The position numbers and the translations under genes are program-made. This document shows, piece by piece, positions 5,428 to 20,087 of a stretch of DNA of 34,856 nt. Within the stretch, counting starts at the first letter, position 1; each line of letters begins with the position of its first letter. The notes under the pieces were generated by a model, which was not told the origin of the DNA, did no database searches, and saw only the letters and a list, made by a program, of their open reading frames with translations. This DNA is from Arthrobacter sp. H20. GTDB taxonomy: Bacteria > Actinomycetota > Actinomycetes > Actinomycetales > Micrococcaceae. Location of the stretch: the NCBI RefSeq assembly GCF_000520515.1, contig NZ_KI914715.1, positions 17,643 to 52,498 of the forward strand, written 5' to 3'.

Positions 5428-5516
5428 CTGAAGCGGAAGCGAGCTAAGCCAGGTTTTCACGCCGCGTTTACCTCGTATTGTCGCGGGGGATGGGCTGATG
5501 CGGCACCGTCGGTTGT

Positions 5517-5536: not shown

Positions 5537-5557
5537 ATAACGAAGGGAACTTCTTCT

Positions 5558-6772
5558 ATGGCATCCCGTTTAGCCAAGACCCTCGCCAGCACAGCCGCCG
5601 TCACTGTAAGCCTCACGCTCCTGGCTGCGCCTGGCGCCTCAGCGCAGGCCCCCGCTCCGGAGGAATCGTCGCCTATCCTGATCGGTCATCGTGGCGCCGC
5701 CGGAACCGCACCGGAGAACACTGTGGCCGCGTTCACGGACGGCCGCAGATCGGGTGCTGACTTCTTCGAGGTCGATGTTCAACTCAGCGCCGACGGCGTC
5801 CCCTTCCTCTTTCACGACGACACCCCTGCGCGCACCACCAACGTCGAGGAAGTCTTCCCCGACCGGGCCACCGACCCGATTACGTCCTTCACCTGGGCCG
5901 AACTGCAACAGCTCGACGCAGGGTCCTACTTCGATGACCAGTTCGTCGGTGAGCGGATTCCCCACCTCGACGACGCCGCTAAGGTTGCCAACACCAAAAC
6001 TGGCGTGTACATCGAGATCAAGTCGCCGGTGAACTCGCCCGGTATAGAGCAGTTGGTCGCCGACGAACTGCGCACCGACAAGACCTGGCAGCGCCTCGTG
6101 GTGACTGACAAGGTCCAGGTCCTGGGCTTCGACGAGGCCTCCAACCGGACGTTCGCCGAGTTGGCCCCGGAGATTGAGTTGCAGCAGCTTGCAGGAGTTG
6201 TTCCGGGACCGGCTGTGCTTGAATCCTGGGCTACCTTCGCCGATTCGGTGGGCACCAACTACCGCGTGCTGACTGCGCAGAATGTCAGTGACGTCAAAGC
6301 AGCGGGCCTGATACTCGGGGTTTACACGGTGAATTCGCCCGAGGCGGTCCAGGCGTCAATCGATCTGGGGGTCGACGCCGTCACCACCGACTTCCCCATC
6401 CAGAACGCCCGCTACCTTCAGGGAGCACCGGTGTTTCCTGGTAGCGGCGTGGAGATTGTCGACTCGGTGAACAACCCAGCCGGCGACGATGTCCAGCCCG
6501 AAACGGGTGAGCATGTAGTGCTGCGCAACACCAGCAACAGGACCATCGATGTCAGCGGCTACATCCTGCGTGACGCCGCGAGCAACATTCTCACCGTGGG
6601 TGACGGCTACACGCTGGCCGCCGGAGCAGCACTGCGGGTCTACACCGGCCCCGGGACCAACGCCGCTGATGCCTACTACAACGGACGAACAGCCTCGCTG
6701 CTGAACAACGGTGGCGACTCAGTGGGATTGTGGACTCCGCGGGACAAGCTGCAGGATGTCTTCGCCAACTAA
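5558..6772 (+). CDS. Secreted glycerophosphodiester phosphodiesterase with lamin-tail domain
   Basis: A 404-residue exported enzyme. A Sec signal peptide spans about 1-30 (MASRLAKTLAS, hydrophobic core, then PGASAQA as the cleavage site). The GDPD catalytic domain (about 38-300) shows His44-Arg45, Glu53-Asn54 (GHRGAAGTAPEN), Glu71/Asp73 and His86 (FLFHDD), the metal and acid-base residues of the family. From about 310 to the end lies a lamin-tail-domain-like beta module (EHVVLRNTSNRTIDVSGYIL, later RVYTGPGT and LLNNGGDSVGLW). It should hydrolyse glycerophosphodiesters outside the cell and release an alcohol and glycerol-3-phosphate. ATG 5558 has GAAGGGAA upstream; ATG 5498 would add 20 residues before the signal peptide. 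The stop overlaps the stop of the convergent gene. Confidence 0.88.
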   Translation: MASRLAKTLASTAAVTVSLTLLAAPGASAQAPAPEESSPILIGHRGAAGTAPENTVAAFTDGRRSGADFFEVDVQLSADGVPFLFHDDTPARTTNVEEVFPDRATDPITSFTWAELQQLDAGSYFDDQFVGERIPHLDDAAKVANTKTGVYIEIKSPVNSPGIEQLVADELRTDKTWQRLVVTDKVQVLGFDEASNRTFAELAPEIELQQLAGVVPGPAVLESWATFADSVGTNYRVLTAQNVSDVKAAGLILGVYTVNSPEAVQASIDLGVDAVTTDFPIQNARYLQGAPVFPGSGVEIVDSVNNPAGDDVQPETGEHVVLRNTSNRTIDVSGYILRDAASNILTVGDGYTLAAGAALRVYTGPGTNAADAYYNGRTASLLNNGGDSVGLWTPRDKLQDVFAN

Positions 6773-7125
6773 CCGGGACAGTCGGGGGCGGCCTGCCTCA
6801 GGCCGGCGGTGACGACGTTGAGGGCCACCCCTGTTTCTGCCGCAGCCCGCCTCCGCATCCGGTGCACCAGCCGTTTCCTGTGCAGGAGCGCGGCGGGGTC
6901 CTGCAGGATGGCTGCCCAGACGTCATTGACCGTGCTGTACTGCAGGACTGCGCCGGTCACCCCGCGCACCACCCAGGTATCCCCGGCAGCTTGCACGCTG
7001 GGGATACCTGGCAGGCCGTGACAGAGTGTGTTGATGGTCTGCGCAGCGATCAGCCGGTGACGGAGGGTGCTGACTGGGCCGAGCACTTCATCGGCTGTGA
7101 CTGTTCGTCCGCAGACGCCGCACAT
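6769..7125 (-). CDS. Conserved small hypothetical protein (MCGVCGRTV-type)
   Basis: A 118-residue protein of unknown function. It begins MCGVCGRTV, a CxxC pair that suggests a small metal or redox site, and continues with VLGPVSTLRHRLIAAQTIN and a basic RKRLVHRMRRR stretch. I have the impression of similar short proteins in Arthrobacter relatives, but I cannot assign a function. GGAAGGA lies 11 bases before the ATG, a long spacing. It follows SDR1 by 45 bases in the same direction, so it may be the last gene of that operon. Its stop codon overlaps the convergent phosphodiesterase stop by 4 bases. Confidence 0.65.
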   Translation of the reverse strand: MCGVCGRTVTADEVLGPVSTLRHRLIAAQTINTLCHGLPGIPSVQAAGDTWVVRGVTGAVLQYSTVNDVWAAILQDPAALLHRKRLVHRMRRRAAAETGVALNVVTAGLRQAAPDCPG

Positions 7126-7139
7126 TTACTGGCCGTTCC

Positions 7140-7166
7140 TTCCACATGGTGAAAATTCCACTGGTG
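7140..7166. repeat. Short direct repeat upstream of the small hypothetical gene
   Basis: TTCCACATGGTG (7140-7151) and TTCCACTGGTG (7156-7166) are near-identical direct repeats separated by four A bases, one and a half helical turns apart start to start. They lie just upstream of the MCGVCGRTV gene and could be tandem regulator half-sites. Confidence 0.3.
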
Positions 7167-7170
7167 AGAA

Positions 7171-7869
7171 TCATTGCATCACGTCGCCGGAGTTGGGGCC
7201 TAGGGTTTGTCCTACGAAGAGGTTGCCGCCGGGGTCACTCGCGAGCAGCAAAGCGGCGGGGGCAACCTCGGCCGGTGTGCCGAATCGTCCCAGGGGAAGC
7301 TCCTTCCGTTTGGCGGCCTTCCAATCGTCGGAGATTCCCTCCACCAGCGGTGTTTCGATCGGTCCCGGAGCTATGCAGTTGACCAGCACATTGTCACCGG
7401 CCACCTCAAGGGCGAGAGATTTGGTCATGCCGATCACCCCCGCCTTCGCCGCACTGTAGTGGCTGAGGCCGGTGCCGCCCTTGATGCCAAGCTGGGACGA
7501 GATGTTGATGATCCGTCCCCATTTGTTCGCCCGCATCTCGGCGACCACTTCACGGCAGCAGAGGAAGACCCCAGTCAGGTCGACGGCGATGGTTTCCTGC
7601 CACCGGGCCAGCGACATGTCCTGGAGCGGTGATTCAGTGAGCAGTCCTGCACTGTTGACGAGAATGTCGATCCTGCCCAGCTCTGCCCGCGCTGCGGCGA
7701 AGCCGGCCACCACGCTTGCCTCGTCGCCCACATCGACGGTGATCGAGTGGGGCGAGGGCGTCCGGTCCAGCACCACCACCCGCGAACCGGTCTCCCGGAA
7801 GGCCTCGGCGATCGCCGCCCCGATGCCGCTCCCGCCGCCGGTGACGACGACGGTCCGCGCGGCGCTCAT
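7171..7869 (-). CDS. SDR-family oxidoreductase 1 (FabG-like)
   Basis: A 232-residue classical short-chain dehydrogenase/reductase. The cofactor motif is TGGGSGIG (10-17), the NSAG motif is at 72-75, and the catalytic set is Ser125, Tyr138 and Lys142 (HYSAAKAG). It should interconvert a hydroxyl and a keto group with NAD(P)H in the cytoplasm. The start at 7869 gives an ATGA overlap with the stop of SDR2, the mark of translational coupling; an in-frame extension to 7995 would run deep into SDR2. Its place behind the imidase-type enzyme and transporter suggests it acts on a product of that pathway; the substrate is unknown. Confidence 0.9.
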   Translation of the reverse strand: MSAARTVVVTGGGSGIGAAIAEAFRETGSRVVVLDRTPSPHSITVDVGDEASVVAGFAAARAELGRIDILVNSAGLLTESPLQDMSLARWQETIAVDLTGVFLCCREVVAEMRANKWGRIINISSQLGIKGGTGLSHYSAAKAGVIGMTKSLALEVAGDNVLVNCIAPGPIETPLVEGISDDWKAAKRKELPLGRFGTPAEVAPAALLLASDPGGNLFVGQTLGPNSGDVMQ

Positions 7870-8630
7870 GCCTTCATCTTGACGGTGAGGCCGCCGTCGA
7901 CAATCAGCGACTGCCCGGTCACATAGGCGGCGTCGGCCGAGGTGAGGAACCCAATCACACTGGCTACCTCCTCCGGCCGGCCCACGCGACCCCACGGGAT
8001 GTCCCGCCCCGCACGCTCCAGGCCGTCCGGCCCCAGCGAGTTCACGGGATCCAGGGACTGCGGGGTTTCGATCAATCCGGGAACGACCACGTTGGCCCTA
8101 ATCCCTCGGGGACCCAGTTCGACGGCGACGCTCCTGACCAGCCCGAGAATTCCCGCTTTGGCGGCAGCGTAGTGCGCGTGCTCCTCCCAGCCGTAGACTC
8201 CACCCGCGATGGACGAGACGGCGACCATGGCGCCGCCGTCGTCCATCCGGGTGGAGCCAGCCCGCAGGGTCCTCAGCACACCGGTCAGATCGACGTCGAG
8301 CATGTCGTTCCAGCGAGAGTCGGTGAGCTCTCCGAGTGGAGCATTGCGCAGGACGCCGGCGTTGGCCACCGCGTAGTCCAGCCGCCCAAACTCGTTGAGC
8401 GCCCGGTCAGCGAAGGTCTCCACCGATTCAGTGTTCCTGACGTCCACTTCCTGGATGACGGCCCGGCCCCCGGCCCGCTCGACCAGGTGGAGGGTTTCCT
8501 CCGGGTCGTGCGGATCACCGGAGAACGTGCCTATGACCGAGCGGACCCCGCGCTGTGCGTAGTGGACGGCGAGAGCACGTCCAATTCCGCTGGCAGCGCC
8601 GGTAATGATGGCTACAGGTGACTCAGGCAC
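7866..8630 (-). CDS. SDR-family oxidoreductase 2
   Basis: A 254-residue classical SDR, different from its neighbour (the two share fold motifs but little else by eye, so they are not a recent duplication). Cofactor motif TGAASGIG (10-17), NAG at 90-92, and catalytic Ser139/140, Tyr154 and Lys158 (HYAAAKAG). Near the C-terminus YVTGQSLIVDGG is typical of FabG-like SDRs. It starts with GTG at 8630, with GGAGG six bases upstream, and overlaps the transporter stop by 8 bases and the SDR1 start by 4. Two SDRs in one operon suggest a two-step redox change, such as epimerisation through a keto intermediate; this is inference. Confidence 0.9.
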   Translation of the reverse strand: MPESPVAIITGAASGIGRALAVHYAQRGVRSVIGTFSGDPHDPEETLHLVERAGGRAVIQEVDVRNTESVETFADRALNEFGRLDYAVANAGVLRNAPLGELTDSRWNDMLDVDLTGVLRTLRAGSTRMDDGGAMVAVSSIAGGVYGWEEHAHYAAAKAGILGLVRSVAVELGPRGIRANVVVPGLIETPQSLDPVNSLGPDGLERAGRDIPWGRVGRPEEVASVIGFLTSADAAYVTGQSLIVDGGLTVKMKA

Positions 8631-10002
8631 TCGGGTCCTCCAGTAGCTCCTTCGGGATGGGCTTCGCCATCATCATCAGCAACCCGGAAACCAGGGTGCC
8701 GAGGGCGCCGACCCACAGGGCCGCCGCAGTAGTACCTGCCGCAGCTGTGACCACGGTGAACAACGCTCCGCCCAGGATGATGCCCGGCTGGCTCATCGCA
8801 CCGATGAACGCCAGCCCGGTGGCCCGGCAGCTGACGGGGTAGCACTCTGCCATGAAGTACTGGATGGCCGCGTAGGGCCCCACCAGAAAGAAAAGCCCGA
8901 CGCCGTAGGTGAGGATGATGAGGAAGGGGGTGGAAGCGATGGGGCTGAGCATGACCGAGAAGGAAATACCCGAGATGATCCAGCCGATGATGATGGTCTT
9001 CTTCCGGCCAATGACATCGCCGAACCAGCCGTGGAAGACATAGCCGAAGTAGGCAAGCCCGTTGATGACGATCAGCATCCAGAAGGCGTCTGACAGTTCC
9101 ACTCCGCGGGAGTTCACCAGCACTGAGGAACCCAGGATGCTGAAGACCATGATGCCGAAGAAGTTCACGATCCAGGCGAGGGAGAAGACTATCGTGTTGC
9201 GCCGCAGCTGTGGTTCCCAGATGCGCTTCAGGGGAGCCGTTGAGGAGTGCTGGACGCCGAAGGAGCCGGCCAGTGCGTGGGCTTCGTCCACGTTCCCGGA
9301 CTTTTCCAGCTGGGTCAGTTTCTCGTGCAGTTCAAACTGAGGGGATTCCTTGAGCTTCTTCGCGATCAGGTACACGATGATTGCCGCAGGAATGGCCGCC
9401 ATGATGTACAGGGCCCGCCATCCGAGGGATGGCAGGAAGGCGAAGGCGAGGGCTGCAGCAAGCAGGAAGCCCAATGGCCAGCCGCCCTGGACGAAGGAGT
9501 AGTAGAAGCCGGGGCGTTTGCGCTTCTTTTCGTCCTCGGTGACCTGGAAAACCTCGTTCATGTAGGTCGCGTTGACAGCCTGCTCCGAGAAGCCGAGCCC
9601 GCCGAAGGAGCGCACCACAACGAGCATGGCGTTGCTGATGAAACCCAGTCCCGCAGGAATCACTGAGGTGAGCGCTGACACGACGGCGGTGCCACCGACG
9701 GTGAGCATCATTCCCTTGCGCCGGCCGAGCCGATCGATCACCGGGCCGATGCCGAAGCAGACGATCGCCGTGCCAACAGCAATCCAGGTGTTGATCGCGT
9801 AGGCCTCGGTCTCGGTCCACCCGAATTCTTCCTGCATGGCGGGAAGCAGCGTGCCGAACAACCCATAGTCGAAGACCGCGACGGTCCACGCGAGCAGTGC
9901 CAGGATCATCGCCGTATTGGTGTTTTTCTTGCTGAAGATGGGCAGCGCGCGTTTTTCGTCAGCGGTGGGCGTGGACAGGTCAATCAGTGCCGGAGCCTTC
10001 AT
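8623..10002 (-). CDS. MFS transporter, metabolite:H+ symporter type
   Basis: A 459-residue 12-helix MFS permease. Helix 1 ([19 protein letters not shown]) carries an intramembrane Asp; the loop 2-3 signature is DRLGRRKG and its counterpart in the second half is GDVIGRKK. A large cytoplasmic loop (about 215-265) joins the halves. The layout is that of small-carboxylate, aromatic-acid or polyol importers rather than drug exporters. It overlaps the deacetylase-fold gene (ATGA, 9999-10002) and SDR2 (8 bases), so it is fully embedded in the operon and most likely brings in the substrate of that pathway. Confidence 0.9.
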
Positions 10003-10889
10003 GAGTTGGCTTCCTTTCTGGGATTGTCGGACAGGAACTTGTCGGCGATCTGGTCGAACGTCCGCCAGGTAACGCCGTCGTGCGAGTTGAAGTGCTGGAT
10101 GAGGCGCTCAAGCATGAGCAGGACCTGGGGGCGGCCCGACACATCGGGGTGGATGGTCATGGTGAAGACGGCGTCGTCCATCTCCTGGTAAACCCAGTCG
10201 AACTGGTCCTTCCACATCTGCTCGATATCGCGGGGATTGACGAATCCGTGGGAGTTGGGGGCCGCCTTGATGAACATCATGGGAGGCAGATCGTCGAGGT
10301 ACCAGTTGGCCGGGATCTCCACCAGGTCAGTTTCGTGGCCACGCACCAGCGGTTTCATCCACGCCTCGGCGGGCTTGCTGTAGTCGATCTTCGTCCAGCT
10401 GTCGCCCACCCGGACGTAGTACGGCTCGAAGTCGTTGTGCATCAGGGAATGGTCGTACTTGATGCCCCGCTCGAGCAGGATTTCGTTGGTGATGGTTGAG
10501 AACTCCCACCACGGCGCCACATACCCGGTGGGTCGCTTCCCGGAGACCTGCTCAATGAGTTCGATCGACCGGTCGAGGATGGCCGTTTCCTGCTCACGGG
10601 TCATCGCGATCGGGTTTTCGTGGGAGTAGCCGTGGACCCCGATCTCGTGACCGGCCTCCACCACCATCCGGGTCAGCTCAGGGAAGGTCTCCAGTGAGTG
10701 TCCCGGGATGAACCAGGTGGAGGGAAGGTTGTACTTTTCGAAAAGCCGGAGAATGCGGGGACCTCCCACCTCGCCGCTGAACAGCCCGCGCGAGATGTCG
10801 CAGGGGGAGTCCTCGCCGCCGTAGGAGCCGAGCATGCCAGCAACGGCGTCAACGTCTACGCCGAATGCAATCTGTATGTTCTTAGTCAT
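9999..10889 (-). CDS. Polysaccharide-deacetylase-fold hydrolase, HP0310/cyclic-imidase type
   Basis: A 296-residue CE4/NodB-fold metal hydrolase without a signal peptide. Metal ligands are Asp14 (FGVDVDA), His86 and His90 (HGYSHEN), the same numbering as in Helicobacter pylori PgdA (HP0310). Other family marks are [22 protein letters not shown] and [10 protein letters not shown]. This subgroup also holds the cyclic imide hydrolase of Pseudomonas putida (about 293 residues) and is related to the allantoinase PuuE. A cytoplasmic location and tight coupling to an importer (4-base overlap) and to an asparaginase (3-base gap) favour ring-opening of a cyclic imide over peptidoglycan deacetylation. 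This substrate call is inference from context; the fold and family are clear. Confidence 0.88.
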
Positions 10890-10892
10890 GGG

Positions 10893-11954
10893 TCAGCCTT
10901 TCGATGGGGTCAAAGCGGTCAGGGCGTCGCTGTCCTGCGGGACCAGGAGGCCCCGCCGGTGGAAATGTTGTTCGATGAGGGGGCGGGTCATCCCGAGGGC
11001 GAGAAGCAGTTGCAGCAGAATCCTCGCCTGCCCCGGGCGGAGGAGGCCGGACGGGATCGCCCCCGCGGCGAGGAGGTCCTTCCCGCCGCCCGTGCCATAG
11101 ACCGGCACCACAGGTCCGGCATGGACCCGCGTACTGGTGACGACGACGGCGCCTCCGGCCGTCGCCTCCGCCACCGCCGTGCACAGGACGGGGTTAGCGT
11201 TGCCGATCCCCGTGGCCTCCAGCACGATTCCTGCTGCTCCCGCCGCCAGCGCGGCCTCGATCATCACTGCATCGGCGCCGGGGTAGGAGGCGACGACGTC
11301 GGTTCGGGGGAAACCGACGCCGTCGCCTGTCTGGGGGGCGGGCAGGGGTTCGAAGCGGGCCGGGCGGGAGTCCATCGACACGACGCCGGTGCCTGTGACG
11401 CTGCCGGCCGGGATGCTGTCGGGACTGTCGAAGGCCGCATGGGCGGTGGTGTGAACCTTCCGCACTCCCGCCGAATGGAAGATCTGCCCGGCAAAGCTGA
11501 CCAGGGCGCCCCTTCCACCCGCTTCGGGGGAAGCCGCGACGGCGATGGCCCGCCGCAGGTTATCCGGCCCGTCAGGTGTGGGGTGATCCGCGGCAAACTG
11601 GGCGCCGGTAAAGACCACCGGCCGCCAGTCGTCGTGAAGCAGATCGGCGAGGTAGGAGGTTTCCTCGGTGGTGTCAGTTCCATGGGTGACGACGACGCCC
11701 ACCACCAGCGGATCGCTCAGCGCAGCTTTGACCTCTGAACAAATTTCCAGCATGTCCGGAAAGGTGAGCCGGTAGGAGCCCTTCCGCATCACGTCGACCA
11801 CCTTCACCGGGACCGACCCGTGGCCGGTGCTTTGCAGCAGCACCTCGCCTGAGTCCTCCGCGATGGTTGCGCCGCCAGCCTCCGGGGAATTGCGGGAAGC
11901 GATGGTGCCGCCTGTTGCCAGCAGCACCACGAATTGATCATCGCTGGTTCTCAT
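10893..11954 (-). CDS. Asparaginase family amidohydrolase
   Basis: A 353-residue type I/II asparaginase-fold enzyme. Both catalytic motifs are present: TGGTIAS with nucleophile Thr17, and THGTDTTEE with His91, Thr93 and Asp94. No signal peptide, so it acts in the cytoplasm. The start at 11954 is supported by a strong GGAGGTGACC just before the ATG; an upstream in-frame ATG at 11990 lacks this. It is the first gene of an operon whose next member begins 3 bases on. In the family it releases ammonia from asparagine or related amides; beside an imidase-type enzyme a role on the half-amide product is a reasonable inference. Two LacI-type operators lie upstream. Confidence 0.9.
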   Translation of the reverse strand: MRTSDDQFVVLLATGGTIASRNSPEAGGATIAEDSGEVLLQSTGHGSVPVKVVDVMRKGSYRLTFPDMLEICSEVKAALSDPLVVGVVVTHGTDTTEETSYLADLLHDDWRPVVFTGAQFAADHPTPDGPDNLRRAIAVAASPEAGGRGALVSFAGQIFHSAGVRKVHTTAHAAFDSPDSIPAGSVTGTGVVSMDSRPARFEPLPAPQTGDGVGFPRTDVVASYPGADAVMIEAALAAGAAGIVLEATGIGNANPVLCTAVAEATAGGAVVVTSTRVHAGPVVPVYGTGGGKDLLAAGAIPSGLLRPGQARILLQLLLALGMTRPLIEQHFHRRGLLVPQDSDALTALTPSKG

Positions 11955-11982
11955 GGTCACCTCCTTCCTCGTCGCCATGCGG

Positions 11983-12002
11983 TTACACAATCGTTTGGGT
12001 AA
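11983..12002. promoter_or_regulatory. Predicted LacI-family operator, asparaginase-proximal
   Basis: TTACACAA-TCGT-TTGGGTAA: 7 of 8 arm positions are symmetric around a central CG, the hallmark of LacI/PurR-family sites. It lies 29 bases upstream of the asparaginase start and shares the core CAATCGTTTGGGT with the second site, 101 bp away centre to centre. Confidence 0.75.
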
Positions 12003-12084
12003 GCTACAAATCGTGTCCGGCCAGATTCTGCGGCTGGTGTCGATTGCTCCCAGCCAGCCTGCTTGTCCGTCCGGTTAGTTACTC

Positions 12085-12102
12085 AACCCAATCGTTTGGG
12101 TT
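12085..12102. promoter_or_regulatory. Predicted LacI-family operator, lacI-proximal
   Basis: AACCCAA-TCGT-TTGGGTT: perfect 7-bp arms around a CG-centred core. It overlaps the -35 box of the regulator's own promoter, so autorepression is expected; with the first site it could also support DNA looping. Confidence 0.8.
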
Positions 12103-12123
12103 CGTTGTGGAAAAGACTAGAAT
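12096..12123 (+). promoter_or_regulatory. Predicted promoter of the LacI-type regulator
   Basis: TTGGGT (12096-12101) and TAGAAT (12118-12123) are separated by 16 bases. The -10 matches TATAAT in five of six positions. The -35 lies inside the second operator. The leader to the chosen start would be roughly 80 bases. Confidence 0.5.
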
Positions 12124-12213
12124 GTGATTTGGGTCTCGTCAAGGGTTCGACTGAAAGTTTTCAGGTCTGAAACAATCATGTACATGATCAGGGAGCACGG
12201 CGGAGGGAGTCTT

Positions 12214-13278
12214 ATGGGCGCAGGAGGGCAAAGCCGCGTACCGGTCACGCTGAAGGACCTTGCCAGCGAGTTGGGGATCCATCCCTCAACCGTCTCGAGG
12301 GTCCTTCACTCGACGTCGGACGTGGCCCGCGGTGCCGCTTCGTCAGCAACTGCGCAGAAGGTGCGGGATCTCGCCCGGGAGCGCGGATACTCACCGGATC
12401 CCCAGGCGAAATCCCTCAGGACACGCCGGACCCGCGCGCTCGGCGTAATCGTGCCGCGGCTCTCCGATATTGTCCTGGCCACCATGTATGAGGGCATCGA
12501 GGAAGCCGCGGCCGAGAACAACTATTCAACGTTCGTCATGAACTCCCACGACAGTCCTGACGAGCAGCGCCGGAAAGCCGAGATCATGCTGGCCCGTCGG
12601 GTAGACGGACTCATCCTCGGTGACGTACATGACGGCAGCGATCTGTTACCTGATCTGCGTGCACGACACATCCCGTTTGTGCTGATGAACCGCCGGCATC
12701 CCGGTTTCCCCTCGGCAACCTGCGACGACACCGTGGGAGGAGAGCTGGTGGCAGACCACCTCTGGCAGGCGGGTCATCGGCGTGTCTCCCTGATCGCTGG
12801 AGAACCCTATGCCAGCACGGCGCTGGACCGCACCGCCGGTTTCCGGCAACGCTGGCAGGACCTGGGCGGAGAGCTTCCTGACAGCTCAGTGATCTGGTCG
12901 CGCTTCGATACCGAGGGCGGCAAGGAGGCAGCGGAAACCATTGTTGCTCAGCCCGGTCCAGTACCGACGGCTGTTTTTGCCGTCAACGACTTCGCAGCGA
13001 TCGGGGCGATGGGTACATTCCGCGCGCACGGGCTGACGGTGGGTCAGGACATTGCCGTCGTCGGCTTTAATGACACCTCACTCGCCGCACAGCTTCCCAT
13101 CCCTTTGTCCTCGGTGCGCTCGCCGATGTTCCAGATTGGCCGTCAGGCGATGCTGATGCTGCGGCGGGTCATCAACGGCGAGCAGGTCGACTCGGTTCGG
13201 ATGACACCCCAACTCTTCGTCCGTGAGAGCAGTGCCGCGTCGCCGCACCGCGAGTCGCAGCGTTCACTGGCCAGCTGA
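12214..13278 (+). CDS. LacI-family transcriptional regulator
   Basis: A 354-residue repressor. The N-terminal helix-turn-helix is VTLKDLASELGIHPSTVSRVLH (residues about 10-31, so written here in part), then the hinge helix region with SLRTRRTRALGVIVP, then a periplasmic-binding-protein-like sensor domain to about 335 (VDGLILGD, VGFNDTSLA). I chose ATG 12214 because GGAGGGA lies 5 bases upstream; ATG 12178 is in frame but has no comparable site. It is divergent from operon A and its stop overlaps the pxpC stop by 15 bases (convergent). The two palindromes upstream fit its own control and that of operon A. The inducer is probably the imide, lactam or amide substrate or its product. Confidence 0.92.
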   Translation: MGAGGQSRVPVTLKDLASELGIHPSTVSRVLHSTSDVARGAASSATAQKVRDLARERGYSPDPQAKSLRTRRTRALGVIVPRLSDIVLATMYEGIEEAAAENNYSTFVMNSHDSPDEQRRKAEIMLARRVDGLILGDVHDGSDLLPDLRARHIPFVLMNRRHPGFPSATCDDTVGGELVADHLWQAGHRRVSLIAGEPYASTALDRTAGFRQRWQDLGGELPDSSVIWSRFDTEGGKEAAETIVAQPGPVPTAVFAVNDFAAIGAMGTFRAHGLTVGQDIAVVGFNDTSLAAQLPIPLSSVRSPMFQIGRQAMLMLRRVINGEQVDSVRMTPQLFVRESSAASPHRESQRSLAS

Positions 13279-14244
13279 CCCCCAGATCCTGGACCGCAGA
13301 GTCTTTCCTTCGTCGCGTGCTGCGAGTGCTTCCTCCATGGTCACCGGGGTGAAGGTTGTCTGCGTCCCTGGAGCGCTCCGCGCCAGCAGGTCCATATCGG
13401 AGCTGATGACCGTGGCCACCATCGCATAACCGCCGCCGGAGACGGCATCGCGGTGGAGCACTATGGGTTCCTTGCCACCGGGGATCTGGATGGAGCCGAT
13501 CGCATAGCCGGCGTCGACGATGTTCGACGGATCGGATCCCGCGCCGAACGGCTGGACCCTCGGTTTCCACGACACCGAGGGGCCGGCATACCGCAGACCC
13601 GTCCGGTCAGCGACTGGCGTCAGCTTCCACGTGGCACTGAACAGGGTATTCAGCCCCTCCTCGGTCAGCCGATGGTCGTACAGACCGGGCATGACCCTTA
13701 CGGTGATCTCCTTGGCGAAGGAAGGCCGGAGGGACTCGTCGATGAAGTCTGCAGCCGACGCATGGCGTTCCAGCCCGGCGGTCCCGACGTCGAGGGCGTC
13801 GCCCGCTTTGAGGGCGCGCCCCTCGAAGCCGCCCATGGCGCCCAACGCATAGGTGGAACGGCTGCCTAGCACCATCGGGACGTCGATTCCGCCCTGGACA
13901 GCGATGTAGTACCGGGTCCCGGCGCGGATCATCCCGAAGGACACCTCGTCGCCTGCGACCAGCTTAAGCCGGGTCCATTGCTCCCGGGGCGTCCCATTGA
14001 CCAGAACGTCCACTGGGGCGCCGGCGACGGCGATGACGGCGTCGGTGTCGGTGGTGAACCGGGGCCCGATGTAGGTGCATTCCAGGACTGCCTCCGCTGG
14101 CGTGTTGCCGGCGAGGGCGTTGGCCAGCTCTGCCGACAGCTGGTCCATCGACCCGCCCTGGGGGATGCCGACGTGATAGTAGCCGGGCCGGCCCGTGTCC
14201 TGGACCGTCGTGGCAAGCCCGGGCTCAGTGATCCTAATGGCCAT
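13264..14244 (-). CDS. pxpC: 5-oxoprolinase subunit C / carboxyltransferase AHS2-domain protein
   Basis: A 326-residue KipA/AHS2 (COG1984) protein. The N-terminus MAIRITEPGLATTVQDTGRPG is typical (shown here in part), followed by HVGIPQGGSMD and later FFGAG-like PFGAGSDPSNIVDAGY and GSIQIPGG. In PxpABC it works with PxpB to cleave 5-oxoproline with ATP; the same fold forms half of the carboxyltransferase domain of urea carboxylase. The ATG at 14244 overlaps the pxpB stop by 11 bases. It is the last gene of the operon and its stop overlaps the convergent regulator's by 15 bases, with no terminator in between. With a biotin carboxylase and carrier in the same operon, a carboxyltransferase role is a real alternative to 5-oxoprolinase. 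Confidence 0.88.
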   Translation of the reverse strand: MAIRITEPGLATTVQDTGRPGYYHVGIPQGGSMDQLSAELANALAGNTPAEAVLECTYIGPRFTTDTDAVIAVAGAPVDVLVNGTPREQWTRLKLVAGDEVSFGMIRAGTRYYIAVQGGIDVPMVLGSRSTYALGAMGGFEGRALKAGDALDVGTAGLERHASAADFIDESLRPSFAKEITVRVMPGLYDHRLTEEGLNTLFSATWKLTPVADRTGLRYAGPSVSWKPRVQPFGAGSDPSNIVDAGYAIGSIQIPGGKEPIVLHRDAVSGGGYAMVATVISSDMDLLARSAPGTQTTFTPVTMEEALAARDEGKTLRSRIWGSAGQ

Positions 14245-15136
14245 TGAGGTGCTCCGTGATCTCCTGGTTGTATTCAGTGGGGTGGGCAAGCGCCCGCTCG
14301 AGGTCGAACACCACGGGCGCCTGCCGGTAGGTGAATGACCCGTCAGCCACCAGCTCCTGGATCCGCCGGTATTCGTCTTCGTCAACCGGTTTAAACTTCA
14401 CAATGTCTCCGGGTTTGAAGAAGATCATGAAGTCGTCGAAGTCCGAGAGGCGCTGGGCAGGATCGAAGATCGGCGCCGCGGCGATCCCGAACATCTGGTA
14501 CCCACCGGCGCCCCGAACCGAGTAGATGCAGGCAAAACAACCGCCGTGACCCACGGTAAGGGCGGGAGTGTCGGTGCGGGGGCTCAGATACTTGGGGACC
14601 TCGAGCTGCTGGTCCTGCGGCACAATCTGGAACATGAAGGGCAGGCCGGCCACGAAACCGACCATCGACACCAGCCACGGTGACTCGTGATGGCGGCTGA
14701 TGAACTCCGCCGGCGACGCCAGATGGTTCTCCTCGGCCGCGAAATCGAGGTCGTTACCCTCCGGGCGCTGGTGTCCCGAGCGAAATCGAGCACCGGTTTC
14801 ACGGGTGTACGGATCGTCATACCAGACGGGCACCTCGATGACGCGGGTCTGGAGGGTGTGCTGTGACATCTGCGCAACTTCGGCCTCGACGCCGCGGACC
14901 GCTTCCTCGAGTGCGCTGGGCGGGAGGTCGTCCGGGTTGAAGCGGATCAGCAGGGACGCGTTGGCTGGGCAGATGTCGGTGATCCCCTGTACGGTGCGGG
15001 ACCCCAGCGCGGCTGCCATCGCGTTGGCCTTGAAGTTGGCGGCGAGGCTCATTCCCTCAGCGATTTCGACAAAGAGGAATTCGTCTCCTCCCCAGGTGTA
15101 ACGGGCCGCGTCCAGGTGCAGGGCTGTGTCGCTCAT
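14234..15136 (-). CDS. pxpB: 5-oxoprolinase subunit B / carboxyltransferase AHS1-domain protein
   Basis: A 300-residue KipI/AHS1 (COG2049) protein. Typical stretches are WGGDEFLFVEIAEG near the start, FVAGLPFMF at about 163-171 and GAGGYQMFGI at about 214-223. Classical PxpB/KipI proteins are about 220-250 residues; this one has an added 40-50 residues around 108-150 (DDPYTRETGARFRSGHQ onward) ahead of the core signature. Longer forms of this kind are usually called carboxyltransferase-domain proteins. The start overlaps the accC stop by ATGA and the end overlaps pxpC by 11 bases, so subunits are translated together. It should form a complex with PxpC; see that entry for the two possible reactions. 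Confidence 0.87.
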   Translation of the reverse strand: MSDTALHLDAARYTWGGDEFLFVEIAEGMSLAANFKANAMAAALGSRTVQGITDICPANASLLIRFNPDDLPPSALEEAVRGVEAEVAQMSQHTLQTRVIEVPVWYDDPYTRETGARFRSGHQRPEGNDLDFAAEENHLASPAEFISRHHESPWLVSMVGFVAGLPFMFQIVPQDQQLEVPKYLSPRTDTPALTVGHGGCFACIYSVRGAGGYQMFGIAAAPIFDPAQRLSDFDDFMIFFKPGDIVKFKPVDEDEYRRIQELVADGSFTYRQAPVVFDLERALAHPTEYNQEITEHLNGH

Positions 15137-16494
15137 GCACTAGCTCCTAACAGGTCGGGTGTTGTTTCGATGAATTTGGAGTGGTGCTCGACGGCGGCCA
15201 CTTCGCTCCGGGCGAGGACAGCCTTCAGCAGGGGGAGAGTGGTTTTCACCCCGGAGATGAGGACCTCGCTGAGCGCTCCGGCCGACCGGGTCATTGCCTG
15301 GTCTCTGCTGGAATCCCAGACGATGAGCTTGGCCAGCAACGAGTCGTAGAATGGCGCCACGGCCGACCCGGCCACCACCCCGGAGTCGATGCGGATGCCT
15401 GGACCTCCCGGCCACTGGAGCCGCTCCAGGGTGCCCGGGCTGGGCATGAATCCGTTCTCGGGGTCTTCGGCGTTGATCCGGAATTCGAAAGCGTGGCCGC
15501 TGAAACTGATGTCCTCCTGGGTGAGGCGGAGTGCTCCGTCGCGCGCCACCAGGATCTGCTCACGGATCAGGTCCAGGCCGGTGATCATTTCCGTGACGGG
15601 ATGCTCGACCTGCAGGCGGGTGTTCATCTCGATGAACGCGGCTTCCTGGGTATCCGGGTTGTAGAGGAATTCGACCGTTCCCAGCCCGCTGTAGTGACAT
15701 TGGCGGCCTAGCTCGATGGAGGAAGCCAGGATGGTTGCCCTGACCTCGTCGGGCAGCCCGGGGGCCGGGGCTTCCTCGACGATCTTCTGCTGTCGGCGTT
15801 GCAGGGAGCAGTCCCTGTCGCCCAGATGGACGACCTGTGCCCCGTCGCCGATGATCTGGACTTCCACGTGCCGGGCGCGGTGGACAAAATGTTCAAGGTA
15901 CACGGTGGAGTCCCCGAAGGCCGCCTGGGCTTCGGCCTGGGCGATTTCCACAGTCGACAGGAGATCGGCTGCTGCGGTGACGAGGCGGATGCCCCTGCCG
16001 CCACCGCCTGCGGAGGCCTTGACCACGAGGGGATAGCCCACCTTCCCGGCGATCTCCAGGATGTTGCTGTCCGGTGTGAGAGCTCCGTCGCTGCCGCGCA
16101 GGGTGGGAACTCCCGCGGTCTTCGCCGCCTGCCGGGCGCGGGACTTGTTGCCCATGAGCTCGATGGCGTCGGCGGACGGACCAATCCAGGTCAGCCCCCG
16201 GTCAACCACGGCTCGCGCGAACCCTGCGTTTTCGGAGAGGAAGCCGTAGCCAGGGTGCACTGAGTCGCACCCGGTGGCCTGGGCAGCCTCAAGGACAGCT
16301 TCAGCGTTTAGGTAACTCTTTCCGGCCGGGGCTGGGCCGATGATGTGGACCTCGTCAGCCAGTTGCGCTGCGTAAGAGTCTTCATCGGGCTCGCTGGCCG
16401 CCAGCACCGTGCGGATGCCGAGGTCGCGGGCCGCGCGGATGATCCGGACGGCAATTTCGCCCCGGTTCGCTACCAGCAGTTTCTCCACGGTCAT
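15133..16494 (-). CDS. accC: Biotin carboxylase subunit
   Basis: A 453-residue ATP-grasp biotin carboxylase. Motifs: N-terminal LLVANRGEIAVRI, HPGYGFLSEN at about 80-89, the ATP-binding glycine loop SAGGGGRGI at about 163-171, KIVEEAPAP at about 239-247, and the catalytic EMNTRLQVEHPVTE at about 288-301. It carboxylates the biotin carried by the partner protein using bicarbonate and ATP. It overlaps the carrier gene and pxpB by 4 bases each. It sits inside the pxp operon, not next to fatty-acid genes, so it likely serves the Pxp complex rather than acetyl-CoA carboxylase. No conventional carboxyltransferase gene is in the window. Confidence 0.93.
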   Translation of the reverse strand: MTVEKLLVANRGEIAVRIIRAARDLGIRTVLAASEPDEDSYAAQLADEVHIIGPAPAGKSYLNAEAVLEAAQATGCDSVHPGYGFLSENAGFARAVVDRGLTWIGPSADAIELMGNKSRARQAAKTAGVPTLRGSDGALTPDSNILEIAGKVGYPLVVKASAGGGGRGIRLVTAAADLLSTVEIAQAEAQAAFGDSTVYLEHFVHRARHVEVQIIGDGAQVVHLGDRDCSLQRRQQKIVEEAPAPGLPDEVRATILASSIELGRQCHYSGLGTVEFLYNPDTQEAAFIEMNTRLQVEHPVTEMITGLDLIREQILVARDGALRLTQEDISFSGHAFEFRINAEDPENGFMPSPGTLERLQWPGGPGIRIDSGVVAGSAVAPFYDSLLAKLIVWDSSRDQAMTRSAGALSEVLISGVKTTLPLLKAVLARSEVAAVEHHSKFIETTPDLLGASA

Positions 16495-16730
16495 CCCTCG
16501 GTCACCGTCGCAATGACGTCACCGGGGTTGACGGCTCCCGAGTCTTCGATGGCGAAGGTTTCGAGAATCCCCGAGACATCACTGCGCACCTCGGAGAATT
16601 GCTTCATGATTTCGACGACGCCGACCGTCTGGCCAGCCTCGATCCGATCTCCAACGGTGGCGTAGGGCTCCTTGTCGGGGCCGGGCTTGCGGTAGAAGAT
16701 GCCGGGAAGTGGGGAAATGATGTCGGTCAT
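16491..16730 (-). CDS. accB: Biotin carboxyl carrier protein, single-domain
   Basis: A 79-residue protein that is only a biotinyl domain, lacking the Pro/Ala-rich N-terminal extension of AccB. The biotin site is Lys43 in VEIMKQF; the usual core is AMKM, so the residue before Met is Ile and the residue after Lys is Gln. A hammerhead-like start (ISPLPGIFYRKP) and the closing VNPGDVIATV complete the fold. The start has AAAGG six bases upstream; it overlaps accC by 4 bases and follows pxpA by 51 bases. It should carry carboxybiotin between AccC and the PxpB/PxpC pair. Confidence 0.9.
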   Translation of the reverse strand: MTDIISPLPGIFYRKPGPDKEPYATVGDRIEAGQTVGVVEIMKQFSEVRSDVSGILETFAIEDSGAVNPGDVIATVTEG

Positions 16731-16781
16731 GGGTGGCCTTTCTGGGCTCTGTTCGGAACTGATTCCTGGACTGGTGGGATG

Positions 16782-17534
16782 CTACTCGGGGAGGGTGGCG
16801 CGCACGGCGGCGGCGACGTCGGGGGAGTTGGGTGCATCGGAGTGCACGCAGATGCTTTGGAAATCGATGTGCAGTTCGGTGCCGTCCGATGCCTCGACCA
16901 CGCCGTCCGCCATCGCGCGGCGCACCCGCGCAGCGGCTTTGGCGGGATCGGTGGGTTCTGGCTGACGCTGGATCAGCAGCTGCCCCTCCGGGCCGTAGTT
17001 GAGGTCCACATAGAGTTCGCTGACAAACTGCACACCCAGTTCGTTGCAAACCGTCTGGTGTTCGGTAGCCGCGAGGCCGTAGAACGGCACGTTATAGAGG
17101 GCAGCGACCTTGGCCGCGGCCGTCATCAGGGACCGGTCCCTGGACAGCATGCCGTACAGGGATCCGTGGGGTTTGATGTGGTTGAGGGTGGCGCCGGCGG
17201 CGGTGAGGAAGGACTGGAGGGCTCCCACCTGGTAAAGCAGGATGTTCTCCACCTCGTCGGGGGTCAGCTTCATTTCGCGGCGGCCGAAACCGACCAGATC
17301 GGGTAGCCCTGGGTGGGCGCCGATGCCGAGTCCCCGTTCGGCAGCAGCTGACACCGTTGCGGCCATGGTGTCGGGGTCTCCAGCGTGGAACCCGCACGCC
17401 ACATTGATGACGTCCACGGTGTCCATCAGGGCAAGGTCATTGCCGAAGGAGTGCAAGCCCAGGGACTCACCCATATCCGAATTCAGGGTGGGGCCTGGCT
17501 TGCTGGTGGCAGGGGTCACAGCTGGCGAAGTCAT
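16782..17534 (-). CDS. pxpA: 5-oxoprolinase subunit A (LamB/YcsF family)
   Basis: A 250-residue YcsF-fold hydrolase. Motifs: LNSDMGESLG near residue 17 (most relatives have LNCD, so Cys is Ser here), NVACGFHAGDP at about 48-58, GAHPGLPD, and HIKPHGSLY. In PxpABC it is the third subunit needed to open 5-oxo-L-proline to glutamate with ATP. I chose ATG 17534; the Shine-Dalgarno there is weak (GTGAAG), but upstream in-frame codons lack family similarity. It is the first gene of operon B and is divergent from a PucR regulator whose start is 93 bases away. Confidence 0.9.
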   Translation of the reverse strand: MTSPAVTPATSKPGPTLNSDMGESLGLHSFGNDLALMDTVDVINVACGFHAGDPDTMAATVSAAAERGLGIGAHPGLPDLVGFGRREMKLTPDEVENILLYQVGALQSFLTAAGATLNHIKPHGSLYGMLSRDRSLMTAAAKVAALYNVPFYGLAATEHQTVCNELGVQFVSELYVDLNYGPEGQLLIQRQPEPTDPAKAAARVRRAMADGVVEASDGTELHIDFQSICVHSDAPNSPDVAAAVRATLPE

Positions 17535-17586
17535 GCGCTTCACACTAGTAGCCGCCGGCGCAGCCGATATAGTGGACTTCCGCCCT

Positions 17587-17597
17587 CGGATAATCCG
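17587..17597. promoter_or_regulatory. Palindrome in the pxpA/pucR gap
   Basis: CGGAT-A-ATCCG is a perfect 5-bp inverted repeat around one base. It contains GATAAT (17589-17594), which could be a -10 for the PucR-type gene, although no good -35 is placed before it. It is a candidate site for the divergent regulator. Confidence 0.35.
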
Positions 17598-17627
17598 GTT
17601 TGATGGGCACATGCACAGGTGGACTCG

Positions 17628-19139
17628 ATGATTATTGCTGATCTGCTATCCGAAGACACTCTCCAACTCCGGCTCCATACCCCCAGTTCGAGCGACCGGC
17701 TAGCCCGGGAAATCAGCTGGTGCGCCCCGGCCGAAACTATCGATCCCACCCCGTTCCTGAGCCGAAACGTCCTGCTCCTGACCAACGGCATCGGCCTGAA
17801 TATCGAGGATGACCGCACCTGGTCGGCCTATGTGGAACGGCTGGTCTCGGTACAGGTGGCCGCGGTGGCGTTCGGCACCGGATTCGCCCACCACCTCATC
17901 CCGCCGGGGCTGGTGCGCGCAGCAGCGGACCACGATCTACCCCTGCTGGAGATCCCGCGGTCTGTCCCGTTCCTTCAGGTGCATCGCCACGTCACCAATG
18001 TGCTGCAGTCCGAGCGTTTCACCGCGATCACCCGGTCCTGGGAGCTCGCCCAGACGTGCGCCGGTCTCGCGTCATCGGGGGCAAGACTTTCCGTCATTCT
18101 CGATGCGGTCGCGGCGGCGGTCAGGGGTGAGGTGGCGATTGCCGACGCCCTCGGTGCGGTGATCGCCAGGTCGCCGGAGCGGTCAGCCTGGAGTCAGGAG
18201 GACCTGGAACAGGCAGCATCGGCAGGGATGGATGCCACGGTTCCGTTGCCGATGGGGACAGGGGATTCCTTCCAGCTAGTAGTGCGGGACGCCGAGGTGG
18301 AGCATCCCATTTCCACCCTGCTGGCGCCCGTTGCATCGATCATTGCCGTGCAGTTGCAGACCGCGCTGCTGACCACCACGTCCAAGCAGTCCGAGCTTGG
18401 TACGCTGCTGGATCAGGTGTTTGACTGGAACGGGGTGGCCTTGGAGCAGTTTGCCAGGACAGTGCGATCCACAGGGCTTCTCGGTGATGAGGCAACCGTC
18501 GTCATAGCGGTCCGCACGGGCCACGGCACCCTGTCGGATGCGTGGAAGACCCGGCTGATGTTGCAGTCAGTGTTCGACGTCGTCAGGGTCCAGGTGCGCC
18601 ATGGCACGTTGTTCGCGTTTGCCCAGCAGCCACGGCCGGGGGACGATGCAGCAGCGACGGCTTCCGAGTCGCTCCTTGCCTGGTTCACCGAAGAGATGCC
18701 GGACCAGGCCGTGGTGCTCAAGGGGCCTTGCGCGAGCAGTGACGAGCTGAGGCTCGGCGTCTACCAGTCCCAGGACATGCTGGCGACCGTGGTCAGGCCA
18801 ACTATTGCTCCTGAGTTGGGCATTAGCGCCCTGATCGCTTCAACGGCGACCCACGGCGCGCGGGCAGGCGCGCGAAAGCTGTTGGCTCCGGTGATCGCCT
18901 ACGATTCCACCCATTCGCTGGGCCTGCTCCACACCCTTGAGTGCTTCCTGGCCCACGACGCCCATCCCTCCCGGGCTGCGGCCAGCCTGTACATCCACCG
19001 GAATACCCTGAGTCAGCGGATCGGCAAGCTGGAAGGGCTGCTGAAGTTATCCCTGTCGACTCTGGAGGGACAGACGACCTGCCTGCTCGCGTTGCGGATC
19101 CTTAGCAGTTCTGACCCGGATCGAACCGGTGCCTCGTAG
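17628..19139 (+). CDS. PucR-family transcriptional regulator
   Basis: A 503-residue regulator. The N-terminal PucR domain (about 1-125) shows LLTNGIGL and LLEIPRSVPF; a middle GGDEF-like linker region follows; the C-terminal PucR helix-turn-helix is at about 425-490 (LLHTLECFL, then AAASLYIHRNTLSQRIGKLE). I chose ATG 17628 with AGGTGG six bases upstream; GTG 17619 is in frame but less likely. PucR proteins often activate purine or amide/amino-acid catabolism genes in response to the substrate. Divergence from pxpA and a 9-base gap to the acetamidase gene make both likely targets. Confidence 0.9.
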   Translation: MIIADLLSEDTLQLRLHTPSSSDRLAREISWCAPAETIDPTPFLSRNVLLLTNGIGLNIEDDRTWSAYVERLVSVQVAAVAFGTGFAHHLIPPGLVRAAADHDLPLLEIPRSVPFLQVHRHVTNVLQSERFTAITRSWELAQTCAGLASSGARLSVILDAVAAAVRGEVAIADALGAVIARSPERSAWSQEDLEQAASAGMDATVPLPMGTGDSFQLVVRDAEVEHPISTLLAPVASIIAVQLQTALLTTTSKQSELGTLLDQVFDWNGVALEQFARTVRSTGLLGDEATVVIAVRTGHGTLSDAWKTRLMLQSVFDVVRVQVRHGTLFAFAQQPRPGDDAAATASESLLAWFTEEMPDQAVVLKGPCASSDELRLGVYQSQDMLATVVRPTIAPELGISALIASTATHGARAGARKLLAPVIAYDSTHSLGLLHTLECFLAHDAHPSRAAASLYIHRNTLSQRIGKLEGLLKLSLSTLEGQTTCLLALRILSSSDPDRTGAS

Positions 19140-19148
19140 GCTAGGCGG

Positions 19149-20087
19149 ATGACTGTTCACCACCTTGAGCCCAGCCTGGCCACCACCACCCAGGTGTTTT
19201 CCCGCGACAGTCCGCCGGTGCTTACCGTGAACCCCGGAGACTCGGTGCGGGTCCGATCCCTCGACGCTTGGGGGCACCTGGAACGGCAGACTATCCCCGG
19301 AGAGGACAAGCCGCAACTCTTCGCCGAACGGGAGGGGCATTGCCTCACCGGGCCTATCGCCGTGGCAGGTGCCAAACCCGGTGACATGTTGGCCGTCACC
19401 TTCGCCTCCCTCACTCCCGACCCGTGGGGGTTCACCAACGCAGGGCGGAAGGACGACGAGTTCACCCGACTGCTCGACGTCGACGGTGGTGTACCGCAGT
19501 GGCTGCTATGGGATGTTGATGCGCAGCAGGGGACAGCTACCAATCAGCTGGGGCAGAGCGTTGCGCTGAACCCGTTCCTCGGCGTCGTCGGCGTGCCGAC
19601 GAACCGTCCGGGCGACTTCGCCACCACGCCGCCGCGGGCTGACGGTGGCGGCAACATCGACTGCAAGGAACTGACCGTCGGATCCACCCTGTTTCTGCCG
19701 GTGACAGTTCCCGATGCGCTAGTGAGCGTTGGCGACGGGCACGCAGCACAGGGCGACGGCGAGGTGGGCGGTACCGCGATTGAGTGCGGAATGACCGCTG
19801 ACCTGGTGCTCGACGTCGTCCTCGATGCTCCACTGCAGACCATTCATGCGATGACACCGACGGCGAGAATCACCTTCGGCTTCAACGCCGATCTCAACCT
19901 CGCGACTGCTGAAGCACTCAAGGCGATGCTGACCTGGATGCAGGACCTCTATGGCATGGAACGCACGCATGCGCTCGCCTTGGCAAGCACAGTGGTGGAC
20001 CTGCGGATCACGCAGGTAGCCAACGAAACGTGGGGTGTTCACGCGGTGCTTAGCCACGATGCGGTGCAGATCTCGCCGACGGTCTGA
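19149..20087 (+). CDS. Acetamidase/formamidase family protein
   Basis: A 312-residue FmdA/AmdA-fold amidohydrolase. Family signs are LTVNPGDSVRVRSLDAWGH early on, GPIAVAGAKPGDMLAV, GVVGVPTN and the conserved GDGHAAQGDGEVGGTAIE at about 194-211. The enzyme hydrolyses formamide or short amides to the acid and ammonia in the cytoplasm. It starts 9 bases after the PucR gene stop and is presumably co-transcribed with it. Its place beside the Pxp operon supports a wider amide-nitrogen function. The Shine-Dalgarno (TAGGCGG) abuts the start codon. Confidence 0.9.
   Translation: MTVHHLEPSLATTTQVFSRDSPPVLTVNPGDSVRVRSLDAWGHLERQTIPGEDKPQLFAEREGHCLTGPIAVAGAKPGDMLAVTFASLTPDPWGFTNAGRKDDEFTRLLDVDGGVPQWLLWDVDAQQGTATNQLGQSVALNPFLGVVGVPTNRPGDFATTPPRADGGGNIDCKELTVGSTLFLPVTVPDALVSVGDGHAAQGDGEVGGTAIECGMTADLVLDVVLDAPLQTIHAMTPTARITFGFNADLNLATAEALKAMLTWMQDLYGMERTHALALASTVVDLRITQVANETWGVHAVLSHDAVQISPTV

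Follow-up and report, generated by a model that had tools for sequence, protein, structure and literature searches.

Which compounds does the gene island at positions 6769-20087 of a 34,856-nucleotide stretch of the Arthrobacter sp. H20 genome handle, and do its genes form one system or several? The stretch (hereafter the window) covers positions 17,643 to 52,498 of contig NZ_KI914715.1, from a genome of 3.44 Mb in 88 contigs. All genes that a preliminary description had named within the island were recovered by family profile matches, and they probably constitute two catabolic modules for small cyclic amides that lie side by side under separate regulators. As reaction classes, imide and lactam catabolism are well supported; the likely substrates and a possible union of the modules in one pathway are our inference. 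The genes and predicted sites are as follows.

7171 to 7869, minus strand: SDR1, short-chain dehydrogenase (SDR), last gene of the imide operon (PF00106/PF13561)
7866 to 8630, minus strand: SDR2, short-chain dehydrogenase (PF13561)
8623 to 10002, minus strand: MFS transporter, presumed importer (PF07690)
9999 to 10889, minus strand: IMD, predicted cyclic imide hydrolase with polysaccharide-deacetylase fold (3qbu match, zinc-site residues)
10893 to 11954, minus strand: ASN, asparaginase family, predicted half-amidase (PF00710 and PF17763)
11986 to 11999, no strand: predicted LacI-type operator, half of a pair, one mismatch
12087 to 12100, no strand: predicted LacI-type operator, perfect CCCAAWCGWTTGGG
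12214 to 13278, plus strand: LacI-family regulator (PF00356/PF00532); the open reading frame opens at 12124, the ATG at 12214 being preferred
13264 to 14244, minus strand: PxpC-like carboxyltransferase (CT) subunit, AHS2 (PF02626)
14234 to 15136, minus strand: PxpB-like CT subunit, AHS1 (PF02682)
15133 to 16494, minus strand: AccC-type biotin carboxylase (PF02786/PF00289/PF02785)
16491 to 16730, minus strand: AccB-type biotin carrier, 79 residues, motif EIMK (PF00364)
16782 to 17612, minus strand: PxpA-like LamB/YcsF protein, start uncertain (PF03746, NF003814)
17619 to 19139, plus strand: PucR-family regulator, divergent from the Pxp operon (PF07905 and PF13556)
19149 to 20087, plus strand: acetamidase/formamidase family protein (FmdA), doubtful member of the system (PF03069)

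Strand and spacing divide these genes into four units, LacI, ASN-IMD-MFS-SDR2-SDR1, PxpA-AccB-AccC-PxpB-PxpC and PucR-FmdA, rather than the three operons first described. They form two modules with separate regulators: LacI with ASN-IMD-MFS-SDR2-SDR1 (module 1, 7171-13278) and PucR with PxpA-AccB-AccC-PxpB-PxpC (module 2). Most genes inside each run overlap or sit a few bases apart; the ATG of SDR1 overlaps the stop codon of SDR2, and a GGAGG ribosome-binding site precedes the ASN ATG at 11954. A promoter scan detected none, and terminator-like sites occurred at the level of shuffled sequence.

IMD is the key to module 1. Its residues 1-292 align without gaps to HP0310 of Helicobacter pylori (3qbu/4ly4; 524 bits), and the zinc and catalytic residues of that protein, Asp12, Asp14, His86, His90 and His247, are all present, as is W127; each of these six positions is kept in 107 or 108 of 108 IMD loci, among which some genomes appear twice. 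The HP0310 structure has no polysaccharide groove, its authors proposed a small substrate, and the protein has no signal peptide and was inactive on allantoin and on the N-acetyl compounds tried (PMC3084791). The same structure, 3qbu, is the closest one to HxnM of Aspergillus nidulans, which is 64.2% identical to a cyclic imide hydrolase homolog of Pseudomonas putida (PMC9304392); deletion of hxnM leads to accumulation of a small amount of 3-hydroxypiperidine-2,6-dione (PMC9304392, PMC8478523). Full-length homology of IMD to the HP0310/HxnM branch runs via 3qbu, the HxnM side of it through the cited structural similarity. Against the PuuE allantoinase model TIGR03212, IMD scored 83.7 bits, far under the cut-off of 424.6. 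The initial proposal of an imidase-type enzyme held up well: colinearity with 3qbu, the structure nearest HxnM, supports the prediction that IMD is a deacetylase-fold cyclic imide hydrolase. As a separate observation, a Leisingera locus (L123, 16426-18876) carries a second polysaccharide-deacetylase gene between a DUF1989 protein and an amidase, and in L025 and L039 distant IMD paralogues likewise have DUF1989 and amidase matches close by.

Cyclic imide users such as Blastobacter have a pathway of imidase and half-amidase. Around the best 80 of at least 580 confirmed IMD relatives, a partner hydrolase within 6 kb was an asparaginase in 53 loci and an amidase-signature enzyme in 22, never both; five had neither (L082, L088, L092, L099 and L106, L099 being a 5-kb contig). 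Under strict same-strand adjacency to IMD the counts are 41 and 14. Six annotated plasmid loci include four with the amidase (L122-L125) and one with the asparaginase (L126), and a typical proteobacterial order, exemplified by Klebsiella (L122) and Pseudomonas loci, is amidase, IMD, MFS, SDR, SDR, small protein and CobW GTPase with a divergent GntR gene. Among 24 genomes of the genus, our own included, 13 have PF00710, as a single copy beside IMD, and the same 13 have IMD. Since the actinobacterial ASN occupies the place taken by an amidase in other phyla, it is a half-amidase candidate; the suggestion that an asparaginase performs the second step after the imidase is thereby supported as a prediction. 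Compared with AnsB, the 72 cluster proteins (some genomes twice) all keep Ser58, Thr89, Asp90 and Lys162, and 71 keep Thr12. The Gln59 position is aromatic and the Glu283 position Gly or Ala in all 72; we take these two AnsB residues to hold the alpha-amino group. ASN did not reach the type II L-asparaginase model TIGR00520 (156.2 bits against 314.3), and a search for PF01112, an asparaginase family other than that of ASN, was empty.

The whole set LacI, ASN, IMD, MFS, SDR2 and SDR1 is found together again in other actinobacteria, and IMD, MFS, SDR2 and SDR1 in Pseudomonas, Halomonas and Klebsiella. Because the same sets recur in these lineages, the arrangement goes beyond chance, and module 1 is a widespread operon; the scattered, non-conserved order that the preliminary description had named as contrary to its proposal is not what gene order revealed here. 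An MFS gene is near IMD in 63 of the 80 loci, and both SDR genes lie within 6 kb in 60. The transporter matches the aromatic acid/H+ symport model TIGR00895 weakly (115 bits; cut-off 418.55), and in the PDB the SDRs match FabG-like, glucose and carveol dehydrogenases of a general kind, which point to no specific role. A role for them in the imide operon is nonetheless suggested by the A. nidulans SDR HxnW, which forms a cyclic imide from a hydroxylactam (PMC9304392).

Some individual loci of this type deserve mention in their own right. One genus member (L013, G017:C37) has IMD and ASN only, without MFS, SDRs, operator or a Pxp set of the window's type, and is perhaps a reduced operon. The amidase-imidase-MFS-SDR-SDR operon and CobW GTPase of L122 (6262-15382) lie on a mobilizable IncF plasmid of Klebsiella pneumoniae (NZ_CP147633.1), near insertion sequences. 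At 12840-15382 it encodes a protein of about 104 residues, the CobW-type GTPase and a protein called solute-binding that has no Pfam match, a trio that recurs after the operon in Proteobacteria and for which we can only guess at a metal chaperone role for the imidase.

How is module 1 controlled? The gap between LacI and ASN contains the palindrome CCCAAWCGWTTGGG twice, as a perfect copy at 12087 and as a copy with a single mismatch at 11986. A site with at most one mismatch occurs in 16 of 57 relatives, and 15 of these belong to the 18 genus genomes with IMD; in all 15 the sites sit in the LacI-ASN gap, and where two are exact their spacing is 87-115 bp. The sixteenth relative (G005) is without this IMD and has one imperfect site. 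Elsewhere in the Arthrobacter sp. H20 genome all sites have two mismatches, and the window outside the gap has no further site at two mismatches or fewer. In the window alone significance is weak, 10 of 100 shuffles giving at least two palindrome matches, so the operator call relies on conservation in relatives. The predicted LacI sites are thus confined to the imide-operon promoter in genus genomes with IMD, and a single regulon over the island is rejected on account of their restriction to this gap.

Module 2 contains biotin carboxylase, biotin carrier and CT domains, all as separate genes, and family profile matches found no allophanate hydrolase gene in the operon. The E-x-M-K motif is present in 42 of 42 AccB frames. 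PxpA passes NF003814 (251.2 bits; cut-off 226) and remains under the other four PxpA models; PxpC passes TIGR00724 (246 against 230.2 bits) and does not reach NF045499 (180.8 against 500). PxpB reaches neither TIGR00370 (76.7 against 145.55) nor, with 110 bits, the cut-off of the urea carboxylase model; its best solved match is the urea carboxylase CT domain 3va7 (58.5 bits), with a PxpB homologue close behind (56.6), and no subunit reaches the urea carboxylase model TIGR02712 (1303.85 bits). Because PxpB and PxpC fall under the equivalog cut-offs, the name PxpABC is valid at family level only. Of the biotin-equipped PxpABC first described, the lactam module itself is real and often stands beside module 1, but the name does not extend to function. 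A second Pxp set in the same genome consists of PxpA and two fusions, PxpBC and AccBC; its candidacy as a plain PxpABC was rejected because of the AccBC fusion, and the contrast between plain and biotin-linked sets was dropped.

Seventeen annotated plasmid Pxp-Acc loci, chosen for variety rather than at random (L182-L185 and L188-L200), offer hints to the substrate. Thirteen keep the order PxpA-AccB-AccC-PxpB-PxpC, and L183, L189, L190 and L193 deviate or are incomplete. L185, L188 and L198 have genes for both gamma-aminobutyric acid (GABA) transaminase and succinate-semialdehyde dehydrogenase no more than 5 kb away, and L191 has the dehydrogenase alone (4 of 17 in all); near the L183 set are genes for an aldehyde dehydrogenase and a class III aminotransferase. 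Biotin synthesis genes are close in two loci, L191 (bioB, other biotin genes and carbonic anhydrase) and L195 (bioB), and molybdenum hydroxylase genes in L184, L189 and L194. As GABA-degradation and biotin genes adjoin some of these sets, a lactam such as 2-pyrrolidinone is favoured over 5-oxoproline: GABA is the expected product of 2-pyrrolidinone, and genes that supply biotin and bicarbonate are in keeping with an enzyme that carboxylates. LamA of A. nidulans is a urea-amidolyase-like protein. In the same fungus the genes for acetamide, GABA and lactam use (lamA and lamB for the last) are under AmdR (PMC8016842), and a relationship of YcsF to LamB, and of KipA to urea amidolyase, has been described (PMC3412718). 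Separately, the Rhodococcus jostii pRHL2 set (L190) lies near bacterial microcompartment genes, an aldehyde dehydrogenase and an aminotransferase. We also observed that AccC, MFS and SDR2 in Pseudarthrobacter sp. Fe7 (L069), and PxpB in Arthrobacter sp. H5 (L030), are broken into separate frames, by decay or sequencing error.

Are the two modules tied to each other? Taking PxpB above 250 bits as window-type and IMD above 350 bits, 18 of the 57 relatives have this PxpB, each of them also belonging to the 22 that have IMD; in 17 the two genes share a contig within about 7 kb, and in G027 they lie on different contigs. An additional LamB/YcsF gene exists elsewhere in all 17 genus genomes with the window-type set, and none in G056. 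Plasmid records number 89 with this PxpB type and 113 with IMD. Among 60 listed of each, 43 records were in both, and in 42 of these PxpB and IMD are 10.3-13.3 kb apart, one distance being counted across the record start. The layouts vary: in Frigoribacterium (L068) and G056 (L019) the Pxp set comes after SDR1, on the strand that SDR1 occupies and with at least about 0.3-0.4 kb between them, and in Aneurinibacillus (L107) it precedes MFS-IMD. Adjacency in such varied layouts extends over Arthrobacter, Pseudarthrobacter, Frigoribacterium, Aneurinibacillus, Rhizobium, Thioclava and Acidiphilium, and a functional tie is suggested because layouts differ among distant lineages yet the modules adjoin. 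Of the 17 annotated Pxp-Acc loci, four have IMD at most 15 kb away (L182 with L125, L191, L195 by annotation only, and L199). Module 2 is therefore often beside module 1, yet apart in many genomes.

FmdA, which had been counted as part of the system, was seen beside PucR only in the closest relatives (L028, L029, L030 and L041, the last on the same contig as L028). It was not found in L033, L034, L035 and L038, whose sequence runs on for at least about 1 kb past PucR; other loci end near PucR. Its membership is doubtful.

Put together, these families suggest the following chemistry, in which we infer every reaction and the direction of transport. In module 1, the MFS protein would import the substrate, one or both SDRs may oxidise a hydroxyl of substrate or product, IMD as a zinc-type hydrolase would open the cyclic imide to a half-amide, and ASN would release ammonia from it to give a dicarboxylate, with LacI presumably acting on the operon through two sites spaced about 100 bp from each other. 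In module 2, AccC would load CO2 onto the biotin of AccB at the expense of ATP, PxpB and PxpC would transfer the carboxyl group to a lactam at its ring nitrogen, in the way that urea carboxylase carboxylates urea, and the ring so activated would be hydrolysed by PxpA, the YcsF protein, yielding an omega-amino acid. 2-Pyrrolidinone or an analogue is the likely lactam, leading via GABA to succinate, and the matching imide could be succinimide-like, also yielding succinate. We tentatively entertain the idea that module 2 is a biotin-dependent lactamase of this N-carboxylating kind paired with the imidase, a lactam and an imide of the same C4 skeleton both reaching succinate.

Several observations weigh against the reading of two associated cyclic-amide modules. 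With respect to linkage, there is no LacI site at the PxpA promoter, most linked plasmids are close Rhizobiaceae, and the whole Pxp-Acc set accompanies IMD in 24 of the 80 loci, some of them on short contigs. Across 216 genomes of the class, IMD occurs in 11 and window-type PxpB in three, adjacent only in our own genome; G247 has PxpB without IMD, and G241 has both on separate contigs. Regarding module 2, biotin by itself marks no new substrate, since the second Pxp set of the genome is also biotin-linked, and neither 13 of the 17 Pxp-Acc loci nor the window has an annotated GabT or GabD. The Pantoea plasmid locus (L121, one of the six annotated) has neither hydrolase partner. In ASN-type proteins, Thr12 is lost in one of 72, and AnsB Tyr25 has no counterpart either in them or in four control asparaginases from other families of the order (L151-L154). 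These controls carry Ser, Ala, Gly and Ser at position 59 and Gly, Gly, Glu and Glu at 283, position 59 is Met in the solved L-asparaginases that match best, and one control (L151, G040) resembles the cluster type at 211 bits in a genome without IMD of this kind. As controls and solved enzymes also lose AnsB positions, the residues leave asparagine possible as a substrate, and their use as proof of a half-amidase is weakened.

HP0310, of the same branch as IMD, has moreover been reported as a peptidoglycan deacetylase with acetylesterase activity (PMC3688963), and Pfam names the fold polysaccharide deacetylase. IMD might on these grounds be a genuine deacetylase whose substrate is a cell-wall or N-acetyl compound, with ASN an ordinary L-asparaginase. 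We regard this as very unlikely given the missing groove and signal peptide of HP0310 and its inactivity on the N-acetyl compounds tried (PMC3084791), the tie of HxnM, also of this branch, to a cyclic imide by deletion (PMC9304392), and operon neighbours that are those of a catabolic route. A different substrate would follow if module 1 corresponded in bacteria to the lower part of the fungal nicotinate (hxn) route. SDR enzymes, joined in some species by an old yellow enzyme (OYE), would then convert a hydroxylated piperidinone or pyridine-derived compound to 3-hydroxyglutarimide, IMD would open the ring, and deamidation would give 2-hydroxyglutarate for oxidation by the second SDR. The enzyme classes match HxnP/Z (MFS), HxnT (OYE), HxnW (SDR), HxnM (imidase) and HxnN (amidase) (PMC9304392, PMC8478523), and an OYE gene directly follows SDR1 in seven of the 80 loci and in Rhodococcus (L126). 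It does not do so in the other 73 or in the window, however, and no family like the ring hydroxylases HxnS, HxnX or HxnV is found among the genes of 6769-20087. SDR and MFS proteins are very common families, and the likeness drawn here is at the level of enzyme class; we consider this counterpart improbable.

The modules could also be unrelated neighbours, imide degradation next to a second biotin-linked 5-oxoprolinase, in a region where catabolic genes gather. Their separate regulators, the absence of a common operator, the class sample with adjacency in our own genome only and the Pxp-Acc operons that have no nearby IMD (L183, L184, L185, L188 and others) all agree with this. It leaves unaccounted for, however, that every one of the 18 relatives with window-type PxpB has IMD, that adjacency recurs in varied layouts across seven genera, that all 17 genus genomes with the window-type set have an additional LamB/YcsF gene, and that GABA genes lie near some Pxp-Acc sets; we consider mere neighbourhood unlikely and prefer two associated modules for cyclic amides.

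On that preferred reading, two widespread gene sets gain a testable substrate class. At present database labels call their products polysaccharide deacetylase, and 5-oxoprolinase, allophanate hydrolase or acetyl-CoA carboxylase; if our reading is true, many labels assigned automatically are misleading, imide catabolism gains a half-amidase with the asparaginase fold, and pyrrolidinone- and succinimide-type compounds have a defined route in soil bacteria. The parts are of known kinds, and the predicted asparaginase-fold half-amidase, the putative biotin-linked lactam module and their repeated pairing appear to be variants for which we found no description: open-licence papers, judged by titles and the beginnings of abstracts, mentioned no bacterial imidase-asparaginase-SDR operon and no biotin-linked Pxp lactamase.

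Around the island, the window encodes a glycerophosphodiester phosphodiesterase with a C-terminal lamin-tail domain (5498-6772, plus strand) and, just past the island, a haem-oxygenase-fold iron enzyme (20179-21222, plus strand; PF14518) and an N-ethylmaleimide-reductase-like OYE (22285-23373, minus strand).

Among known systems, the imide pathway of the Blastobacter type has the same two hydrolytic steps, ring opening and then deamidation, and differs from module 1 in that the latter includes an asparaginase fold, an SDR pair and an MFS gene. HxnM and the P. putida imidase AAY98498 (CE4_HpPgdA_like) share with IMD the closest structure 3qbu and the zinc-site residues, and their gene sets have an amidohydrolase partner, SDR and MFS in common with module 1; here, in contrast, the second hydrolase has the asparaginase fold, control is by LacI, hydroxylases are absent and a lactam module adjoins. 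Of the combination of imidase, amidase, SDR, OYE and transporter in the fungal hxn set, the window has candidates for all but an OYE beside the operon. For module 2, the PxpA, PxpB and PxpC families are those of 5-oxoprolinase (Escherichia coli; Corynebacterium glutamicum pxpTABC, PMC13274462), whereas the operon here includes a separate biotin carboxylase and carrier, PxpB and PxpC fall under the equivalog cut-offs, and GABA genes lie near some relatives. Urea carboxylase and urea amidolyase have the biotin carboxylase, carrier and CT domains in common with it, PxpB being nearest their CT part, although module 2 is split into four genes and PxpA replaces allophanate hydrolase. The lamA/lamB system of A. 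nidulans (PMC8016842, PMC3412718) shares the LamB/YcsF family and, in some relatives of module 2, a link to GABA catabolism, and differs from this bacterial multi-subunit operon with its PucR control and adjoining imidase module. Finally, the N-carboxylating lactam opening proposed for module 2 would differ in mechanism from hydantoinase-type caprolactamase.

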